From: Leptolinea tardivitalis
GTDB taxonomy: Bacteria > Chloroflexota > Anaerolineae > Anaerolineales > Anaerolineaceae
DNA: 64,000 nucleotides
Reading direction: 5' to 3'
NCBI RefSeq assembly: GCF_001050275.1
Contig: NZ_BBYA01000001.1
Span: 1 to 64,000, forward strand
The first letter of the stretch is position 1, and the number at the start of each line of letters is the position of its first letter. Shown here piece by piece: positions 30,843 through 33,269 of this stretch. The notes beneath the pieces were generated by a model. That model was not told the DNA's origin. It was given only the letters and a program-made list of their open reading frames with translations, and searched no databases. The position numbers and the translations under genes were made by a program.

Positions 30843-31139
30843 ATGATCAAGGAACCTACCGGCAAAACCGATCAAAAACAACGGAATTTCAATCTTGCCA
30901 TGGCTGCCCTTGTCAGTCAGGTTGGCTGTCTTACCTTGATCATTATTCTGGCTGCCCTTTTTGGCGGGCTTTATCTGGACAATCGCTTCGGCAGCCGTCC
31001 CTGGTTTACTCTCGGTTTATTAATTGGGAGTATTCCGGTTTCCCTGGGTGTCATGCTTTACGTTTCACGAGCCGCGATTCGCAAAATAAAGACGCAAGCG
31101 GCAGCGCAGGAGGAACAGGAAGTTGGAAGCCAAAAGTAA
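30843..31139 (+). CDS. atpI: AtpI/AtpZ-like ATP synthase-associated protein
   Basis: A 98-residue protein with two membrane helices (about residues 20-45 and 55-77), with SQVGCLTLIIILAALFGGLY and LDNRFGSRPWFTLGLLIGSI typical of the AtpZ/AtpI family. These small proteins help c-ring assembly or magnesium supply. The tail is charged. There is no ribosome-binding site. The last 17 bases overlap atpB. Confidence 0.85.
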   Translation: MIKEPTGKTDQKQRNFNLAMAALVSQVGCLTLIIILAALFGGLYLDNRFGSRPWFTLGLLIGSIPVSLGVMLYVSRAAIRKIKTQAAAQEEQEVGSQK

Positions 31140-32112
31140 ATGGCGCTGGGGCGTCAACCGTTGGATTTTATTGGCCTGTATTATTCTGGGAATTTTTGGG
31201 GCGAAGTATTTTCCCCCGATTCAACCCCACATTCAGGTGGCTCCTGAGAACTTGACTTCTCAGCCCTTATTCACCTTACCGGTAATTGGATCGTTTTATT
31301 TGACCAATACCATGCTGGCAGTTTTTATTGCCTATATTCTGGTGCTTCTTCTCGGTTTTAAGATCAAGAAGGACCTCGAAAAAGGCGATCTGATTCCCAA
31401 AGGCATTACGGGCGCCATCGAGATGCTGGTGGAAGCCCTTTATAACATGACGGAATCAACGGCAGGAAAATGGGCTGGAACGATATTCCCCTACTTTATG
31501 ACCATTTTCCTGGTCGTTTTAACAGCCAACTGGATGGAACTGATTCCGGGCGTTGACAGCATTGGCCGATTGGAAGAATCTGCTCATGGATATCCTCTTT
31601 TGCCGTTGATTCCCGGAGCTGTGGCTGCCATTGTCAAAGGTACTGGCGATGCTGTAAAAGAGGGCGGCTATATGGTGACGCCGTATCTCCGTGCAGCTGC
31701 CACTGACCTGAATTTTACGGCAGCATTGGCTTTGATCTCTGTAACTATGACCCAGGTGATCGGTCTACGCGCCCAGGGCATTGGGTATTTTAGCAAGTTT
31801 TTCAATACCAGAACTCTTTGGACGAAACCTTTCTTTGGAGCTATGGATCTTCTTGTCAGCTTATTGGAGCTGATTTCCGAATTCTCCAAAATCCTTTCGT
31901 TTGCCTTCCGGTTGTTCGGTAATGTATTTGCCGGTTCTGTCTTGTTGTTCCTGGTTGGTGCAATGGTTCCAGTTTTTGCCCAATCATTCATTGTATTGTT
32001 CGAGGTATTCATTGGTTTGATCCAGGCTGTTGTGTTCGGTATGCTCACCATGATCTTCATGGCCATGGCAACAAAAGGCCACGGTGAGCATGAAGAAGAA
32101 CATGCGGCTTAA
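31123..32112 (+). CDS. atpB: ATP synthase Fo subunit a
   Basis: A 329-residue subunit a with TTG start behind AGGAGG (31108-31113). The essential arginine is in SFAFRLFGNVFAGSVLL; FVLFEVFIGLIQAVVFGML follows. It is longer than average because of a segment between helices (about residues 150-190) and an N-terminal extension. The C-terminus is rich in His and Glu (KGHGEHEEEHAA). It forms the proton half-channels against the c-ring. Confidence 0.95.
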   Translation: MEAKSKWRWGVNRWILLACIILGIFGAKYFPPIQPHIQVAPENLTSQPLFTLPVIGSFYLTNTMLAVFIAYILVLLLGFKIKKDLEKGDLIPKGITGAIEMLVEALYNMTESTAGKWAGTIFPYFMTIFLVVLTANWMELIPGVDSIGRLEESAHGYPLLPLIPGAVAAIVKGTGDAVKEGGYMVTPYLRAAATDLNFTAALALISVTMTQVIGLRAQGIGYFSKFFNTRTLWTKPFFGAMDLLVSLLELISEFSKILSFAFRLFGNVFAGSVLLFLVGAMVPVFAQSFIVLFEVFIGLIQAVVFGMLTMIFMAMATKGHGEHEEEHAA

Positions 32113-32153: not shown

Positions 32154-32390
32154 ATGCAAGGTGATATCGTTCAAGCAGCAAAATTTATCGGTGCAGGTCT
32201 TTCAATGATCGGCGCACTTGGGGGTGGTATTGGTATTGGACTGAGTGTCCATGGAGCTCTCGGCGGTATGGCCCGTAATCCTGACACGTACGGCAACCTG
32301 CTGACCAACATGATTCTCGGTATTGCTTTCTCGGAAGCCATCGCCATTTATTGTCTGGTGATCGCCTTCCTGATGCTCTTCGTTCTCTAA
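32154..32390 (+). CDS. atpE: ATP synthase Fo subunit c
   Basis: A 78-residue hairpin with two membrane helices. Helix 1 has the glycine repeat GALGGGIGIGLSVHGAL and the polar loop ARNPDTYG. Helix 2 has the ion-binding Glu in GIAFSEAIAIY. The residues that mark sodium-binding rings (a Gln in helix 1, Ser or Thr after the Glu) are Ile and Ala here, so proton coupling is predicted. A His sits where Gly is common just before the loop. AAGGAG precedes the ATG. Confidence 0.95.
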   Translation: MQGDIVQAAKFIGAGLSMIGALGGGIGIGLSVHGALGGMARNPDTYGNLLTNMILGIAFSEAIAIYCLVIAFLMLFVL

Positions 32391-32417
32391 ACGCATTGCT
32401 GAGAAAGGAGCTAACCA

Positions 32418-33158
32418 TTGGAAGCTTTAGGAATTAATCTCGGTTATTTAATTGTTCAAATACTGATGTTCATCATCGTATTTGTGACCCTGAAAAAGTG
32501 GGCTTATGGTCCCATGCTGGGAATGTTGGAAAAACGACGCAAGACCATTGCTCAGGGTTTGGAAGATGCTCAGGTGGCTTCAGAAGCCCGCGCCAATGCC
32601 GAAAAAGATGCGGCAAAGATTGTGGCGGAAGCCCAGACACAGGCGGCAGAAATTCTTCGTACTGCCACAGAGCAGGCTGAATCTGCCGGACGCGATATTC
32701 GCGCCAATATCGAGGCGGAAGCTGCCAAAGCGCGAGAAGCAGCGGCTTTGGAACTGGAACAGGAACGCAACCGCATCCTCGGTGAGATACGAGGGCAGGT
32801 GGCTGCACTGGCAATCGCTTCGACACAAAAATTGATCGGTGAGACACTGGACGAGAAACGCCAACATGCACTGTTGGATGAATTCTTTAGCGGCGTGAAA
32901 TCAGGCAAGGTGATTGTTTTGGAAAAAGCTGGAACAATCAAAGGTGCCGGAGCAGAAGTCACCAGTGCTCTGCCATTGACAGCTGCCGAGCAGGAAACTG
33001 TCAAGAAGGATGTTTTGAGTGCATTGGGTGGCAGCGCGGCTGTCAGCTTTAAAGTGGATCCTTCCATCCTTGGCGGATTGGTTATAAAAGTCGGCGACCG
33101 GGTTTTAGATGGTTCAGTCTCCGGACAACTGCAAAATCTGCGCCAGAGTTTGAACTAA
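32418..33158 (+). CDS. atpF: ATP synthase b subunit fused to C-terminal delta
   Basis: A 246-residue protein with TTG start after AAGGAG. Residues 1-160 are a b subunit: one membrane helix (about 9-30), KKWAYGPMLGMLEKRRKTI, then a long charged coiled coil. Residues 163-246 resemble only the C-terminal domain of delta, with ALPLTAAEQETVKKDVL and VDPSILGGLVIKVGDRVLDG. The six-helix N-terminal delta domain, which caps the alpha subunits, is absent. The fusion would join the peripheral stalk and part of its F1 anchor in one chain. A terminator follows, so no F1 genes are in this operon. Confidence 0.9.
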   Translation: MEALGINLGYLIVQILMFIIVFVTLKKWAYGPMLGMLEKRRKTIAQGLEDAQVASEARANAEKDAAKIVAEAQTQAAEILRTATEQAESAGRDIRANIEAEAAKAREAAALELEQERNRILGEIRGQVAALAIASTQKLIGETLDEKRQHALLDEFFSGVKSGKVIVLEKAGTIKGAGAEVTSALPLTAAEQETVKKDVLSALGGSAAVSFKVDPSILGGLVIKVGDRVLDGSVSGQLQNLRQSLN

Positions 33159-33239: not shown

Positions 33240-33269
33240 TTGGAATACGAATATGATTCAAGGTAGAAT
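33240..33269 (+). promoter_or_regulatory. Candidate promoter of murE
   Basis: TTGGAA (33240-33245), 18 bases, TAGAAT (33264-33269). Initiation would fall near 33276, so the ATG at 33283, not that at 33253, would be the start on a very short leader. Confidence 0.4.

Follow-up and report, generated by a model that had tools for sequence, protein, structure and literature searches.

The last gene of the F0 operon of Leptolinea tardivitalis encodes a protein in which subunit b is fused to the C-terminal domain (CTD) of delta alone, while the delta N-terminal domain (NTD), or cap, is, as judged by profile searches, missing from both the protein and the genome. The reading that best explains our observations as a whole, and that we consider probable, is that this protein is a cap-less stator that would be attached to F1 through contact between its CTD and alpha, and that it originated from an ordinary b and delta pair within the Anaerolineae.

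The window we analyzed is the first 64,000 nucleotides of contig NZ_BBYA01000001.1, and the F0 genes described within it lie on the forward (+) strand. The fusion gene (32418-33158) has a TTG start 7 nt downstream of a good ribosome binding site (AAAGGAG, 32404-32410) and a stop codon at 33156-33158, and murE comes next at 33253. Its 246-amino-acid product begins with a b domain (residues 1-158, 32418-32891) consisting of a transmembrane helix and a long coiled coil, which was recognized by Pfam (ATP-synt_B, PF00430, residues 11-140, E=2.4e-22), by the helix in the AF2 model and by matches to b subunits in the PDB; the protein also passes the ordinary-b test (TIGR01144, 99.8 bits against a cut-off of 65.5). 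A linker whose length varies among aligned relatives (residues 159-175, 32892-32942) leads to the delta/OSCP CTD (residues 176-246, 32943-33155). Here, Pfam OSCP (PF00213) spans residues 178-245 (E=3e-19; 70 bits against a cut-off of 22.3) and is covered only at positions 104-172 of its 172, and the CTD fragment searched alone gave E=2.5e-20. A first-pass annotation had proposed b fused to only the C-terminal half of delta, and these profiles, which do match delta, agree with it; the border it drew at residue 163, however, belongs near 176, after the linker. It had also set the protein apart from the mycobacterial b-delta fusion (PRK13428/NF009961), which likewise joins b and delta in one chain but keeps full delta (~445 aa) and is accompanied by a second b. 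The Leptolinea protein, with no NTD and a single b gene, indeed fails the mycobacterial test, scoring 81.6 bits against the NF009961 cut-off of 328.

In the AF2 single-chain model, helices at residues 8-140 and 146-158 are followed by the linker and then by a compact alpha/beta domain, with modest confidence for the CTD (pLDDT 51-68 in the single chain and 61 for the CTD piece alone). Residues 176-246 superposed on the delta CTD of P. aeruginosa (VIA-align Z 9.9, rmsd 1.9, 71 residues) and on the delta/OSCP CTDs of E. coli, mitochondria and Chloroflexus, a result that was repeated with the CTD piece alone. The predicted fold of this region is that of a delta CTD.

The fusion gene is preceded in the F0 operon by an AtpI-like gene (30843-31139; PF09527 ATPase_gene1, E=9.5e-8) and by the genes for subunit a (31123-32112; 329 aa, PF00119, E=7.6e-41) and subunit c (32154-32390; 78 aa, PF00137, E=7.9e-18). 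This atpI-a-c-b order, common to nearly all relatives, lies 3' of nuoM/nuoN-like genes and 5' of murE. Subunit a is of a long form, and its nearest solved chain is 9itj_T of Chloroflexus (E=1.7e-45 over residues 14-327). We considered this length as a sign of multiple stalks and dropped the idea, since the long form is shared by Chloroflexus and by relatives with full delta or with CTD-only mini-deltas. In families f23, f49, f51 and f59, the subunit a open reading frames reach ~430-540 aa (L279, L280, L285, L287, L288 and L290), the extra length being a long N-terminal part beyond the homology to a.

The F1 genes are on the same contig, 240 kb from the F0 operon, in the order alpha (273504-275165), gamma (275195), beta (276133) and epsilon (277541), and the operon is preceded by an alpha/beta hydrolase gene. 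Profile searches of the genome (3.69 Mb, 15 contigs, 99.3% complete) found one gamma, one alpha/beta pair and one strong b, with no second b gene among the PF00430 matches above the cut-off; the two other ATP-synt_ab (PF00006) matches, candidates for a second F1, are FliI, which lies beside FliH, and Rho, as judged by sequence reading and context. The genome thus encodes a single F1Fo. The first-pass annotation had named a full delta gene beside the F1 genes as one finding that would overturn it, and the alpha-gamma-beta-epsilon operon contains no delta gene; nor is there a second PF00213 place anywhere in the genome at E values as loose as 10, the fusion gene being the sole match. We also built a cap profile from delta NTDs of the same class and tested it on 38 genomes. 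It recovered all 11 genomes with full delta (E<=1.6e-19), had no match in the L. tardivitalis genome at E<=0.1, and gave four weak, scattered matches in the other 26 genomes with fused or mini-delta forms, none below E=0.002. Pfam, the genome-wide PF00213 search and the cap profile therefore all agree with the earlier claim that the delta NTD is missing.

We fetched 80 homologous fusion loci, 51-88% identical and nearly all aligned over residues 1-245/246. They come from Leptolinea, Longilinea, Anaerolinea, Brevefilum and many Anaerolineales metagenome-assembled genomes, and atpI-a-c-b stands alone as the F0 operon in nearly all of them. Among the matches listed for 396 Anaerolineae genomes, at least 141 genomes, about a third, have the fused form (a single match that starts in b and extends into the CTD, truncated by the end of a contig in three cases) and at least 145 have full delta (a match beginning in the NTD), both counts being lower bounds; no genome among these matches has both. 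The recurrence of the fusion in ~141 genomes rules out an assembly error or frameshift as its source. Among 301 Chloroflexota genomes, the full-length fusion occurs only inside the Anaerolineae, and outside the class only the b part aligns. The fused b and alpha lie kilobases apart where both are on one contig, and b, delta and alpha are consecutive in full-delta genomes. One genome, G073, carries two full-length b-deltaCTD genes, each on its own contig (C14:8436-9152 and C13:5868-6581). In G116 and G048, a membrane pyrophosphatase-like gene, recognized by reading, follows directly 3' of the stator gene (L242:1793-3222 and L251:1993-3237), which is a mini-delta or a b-CTD fusion.

How might such a protein hold F1? 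In the mechanism we propose, the cell has one ATP synthase and the fusion protein would be its sole peripheral-stalk protein. It would dimerize via its b coiled coil, presumably as a b-delta homodimer, and would reach the F1 crown to bind the N-terminal helix of alpha with its own CTD; the cap, whose normal place is on the three-fold axis, would have been lost without replacement. The earlier suggestion that the stator must attach to F1 differently appears right, given the missing cap, while its two specific proposals found no counterpart: our class-specific cap profile detected no separate NTD protein that could attach the stator, and the alpha N-terminus is not unusual. Positions 8, 12, 16 and 19 of the alpha N-terminal helix are hydrophobic in 100% of the alphas from 56 fused genomes and 23 full-delta genomes. 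In the PS3 enzyme, one copy of this helix meets the delta CTD and the other two meet the delta NTD (PMC12229609). The L. tardivitalis alpha (554 aa, L003:9505-11166) also carries an insert of ~50 aa (residues 303-362, between LLERAA and GSLTALPIIET). We considered whether it compensates for the lost cap and dropped it as a strict partner of the fusion; it is common to many fused families, but is absent from many others and occurs in the full-delta family f20.

The closest solved subunits a and b and delta CTD, by sequence, are those of the Chloroflexus aurantiacus F1Fo (PDB 9ITJ set), from the same phylum. Per enzyme, the PDB entries contain chains for 3 alpha, 1 gamma, 10 c, 2 a, 4 b and 2 delta, and from these counts we read two stalks. 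In Chloroflexus, delta is not a CTD fused to b but the 157-aa product of its own gene, with a shortened NTD. The model of one delta chain in 9itk comprises residues 85-154 only, the CTD, which suggests that the delta CTD is by itself enough to hold a stalk. Because the alpha helix is kept, and because both this two-stalk enzyme with its CTD-only delta and an engineered PS3 enzyme offer parallels, direct attachment of the CTD to the alpha N-terminal helix seems most likely to us. If b forms a homodimer, each stalk would carry two CTDs; we know of no solved F-type stalk that shows this, and it counts against the proposal. So does the design of the PS3 enzyme, in which the CTD was fused to alpha since the authors feared unstable binding of the CTD alone (PMC12229609).

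The same engineering study bears on the number of stalks. PS3 FoF1 without the delta NTD and with the CTD joined to alpha assembled with as many as 3 stalks and an a-subunit for each, had an H+/ATP ratio of 5.8 versus 3.0 and made ATP at low pmf, and the authors concluded in 2025 that the delta NTD restricts the stalk number to one (PMC12229609). By Pfam and the cap profile, the Leptolinea enzyme lacks the NTD that, under this rule, blocks the axis (PMC12229609). If the cap limits stalks to one, then it is realistic to predict that a Leptolinea enzyme has two or three stalks, and as many a-subunits; by this analogy, at a little under an even chance, a free axis would leave room for additional stalks and a-subunits, with a higher H+/ATP and ATP synthesis at low pmf. 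Extended to a large part of the Anaerolineae, the idea is of native multi-stalk synthases with two or three b-deltaCTD dimers per F1, each bringing its own a-subunit, with H+/ATP of ~6 or more and ATP made at low pmf; this too we hold tentatively, as nearly an even proposition. Such a state would have been reached by cap loss, a CTD-only mini-delta and fusion to b, and we conjecture that having F0 and F1 in separate operons would let a and b be made in excess of F1.

It is also quite possible, if doubtful, that one b-deltaCTD dimer forms a minimal single stalk that grips F1 with one of its CTDs or with both, the cap being dispensable. A single b2 stalk is enough in nearly all other bacteria, the two CTDs of a dimer could compensate by gripping two alphas, and nothing in the sequence fixes the stoichiometry. 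Set against this, in the engineered enzyme the cap is what keeps the count at one stalk (PMC12229609), and the phylum includes the two-stalk Chloroflexus enzyme.

A different mode of attachment seems unlikely, namely that the dimer resembles FliH2 or the E-G stalk of A/V-ATPases and seats its head on the alpha/beta beta-barrel crown rather than on the alpha N-terminal helix. FliH/YscL and A/V-ATPase subunit E belong to other systems, yet like the fusion protein they place a delta-CTD-like head after a coiled coil, and FliH is a homodimer with one head per chain. A 106-residue piece comprising the end of b and the CTD aligns as a whole with V-ATPase E at Z 6.4-6.7 and, at Z 6.7, with the FliH chain of 5b0o, a FliH-FliI complex, and the fusion protein matches PF06188 (HrpE/YscL/FliH/E) in Pfam (E=2.4e-5) and V-type subunit E in the PDB (E=1.3e-4). 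This likeness is at the level of fold and of weak sequence similarity only, and Z values under 8 may mean no more than a common arrangement. Delta CTDs are the better match, with Z up to 10 and 35% identity, and the partner of the delta CTD, the N-terminal helix of alpha, is fully kept. Reportedly, Pallen and colleagues view FliH and V-ATPase E stalks as relatives of b plus delta CTD, and the fold and weak sequence links fit that view.

Could a diverged or separately encoded cap lie elsewhere and have escaped detection? Profiles do miss very diverged domains, but we consider this very improbable, because the class profile finds every full delta tested and nothing convincing in the 27 genomes without one. 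Membership in the N-ATPases (alternate F1F0), whose long b is related to subunit E and which have no delta (PMC5706428), is hardly credible: the 246-aa TIGR03321 model aligns over its full length (E=4e-22), but the score is 79.2 bits against a curated cut-off of 224.7 (not decisive alone, as N-type b of Anaerolineae also fall below it at 91-131 bits), the ordinary-b model is passed, and the I-a-c-b and alpha-gamma-beta-epsilon orders differ from the N-ATPase order beta-epsilon-(Q-R)-a-c-b-alpha-gamma.

The N-ATPase b (~250 aa) does share with the fusion protein a b part, an OSCP-CTD-like end and the lack of a delta gene, but N-ATPases are encoded in one operon and accompany a main synthase, whereas the Leptolinea enzyme is the cell's sole ATP synthase, encoded at two loci. 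Since N-type b of Anaerolineae have the same b plus OSCP-CTD layout, the layout itself has precedent. Other NTD-less solutions place the CTD on alpha, by engineering in the deltaDeltaN-alpha PS3 FoF1 and naturally in the delta-alpha fusion of Acidaminococcus fermentans (PMC12229609), whereas in Leptolinea it joins b. The b-deltaCTD fusion is another natural NTD-less solution, in a main ATP synthase and with the CTD on b; our literature search found no paper naming it.

A 78-row tree of b plus CTD unites the fused proteins in a single clade (96/86, recovered in 98% of bootstraps), and N-ATPase-type b form a separate clade (100/99) with the fusion outside it. With tree, operon and scores all against an N-ATPase origin, we dropped it and place the origin of the fusion outside the N-ATPases on phylogenetic grounds. 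An alpha tree, made with a quick method, shows two groups of fused families, with f16/f47 nearer to the mini-delta family f9 at unstarred support. A second fusion event is thus possible from the alpha tree, whereas the b plus CTD tree gives one clade. Some genomes of the same family contain N-ATPase-like or very diverged b-CTD proteins (L271; G243, G263, G320 and G334). Two OSCP-CTD places occur in G253, and two weak ones in genus g3, where the alpha match reaches only E ~1e-104.

Intermediate forms are also found. Free CTD-only mini-deltas of 81-84 aa accompany a separate b in G100, G173, G005 and G116, and mini-deltas of 118-123 aa, again with b separate, occur in G047, G029, G091, G037, G069, G115 and G068. 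The first 29-53 residues of the latter are unlike the cap, and in the two mini-deltas checked, Pfam covers only positions 98/100-172. In several families, mini-delta genes sit between b and alpha or after b (L244:1477-1731, L242:1492-1737 and others). Since free CTD-only mini-deltas exist with a separate b, cap loss would have been possible before fusion, and the two appear to be separable steps in which the cap can go first; on the b plus CTD tree, mini-deltas require several changes. We thus envisage an origin in Anaerolineae in which an ordinary b and delta pair lost the cap, the rest of delta was fused to b, and the F0 and F1 operons became separated.

The delta NTD is usually taken to anchor the stator on F1 and, since the 2025 engineering study, to fix the stalk number at one, yet many free-living bacteria have lost it from the one ATP synthase they possess. 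The graded series of full delta, free CTD-only mini-delta and b-CTD fusion makes for an unusually clear evolutionary series, and two questions now become testable, namely whether coupling depends on the cap and whether enzymes that have lost it become multi-stalk, with a raised H+/ATP. If true, a raised H+/ATP would concern organisms living on small energy yields, and Leptolinea is anaerobic.
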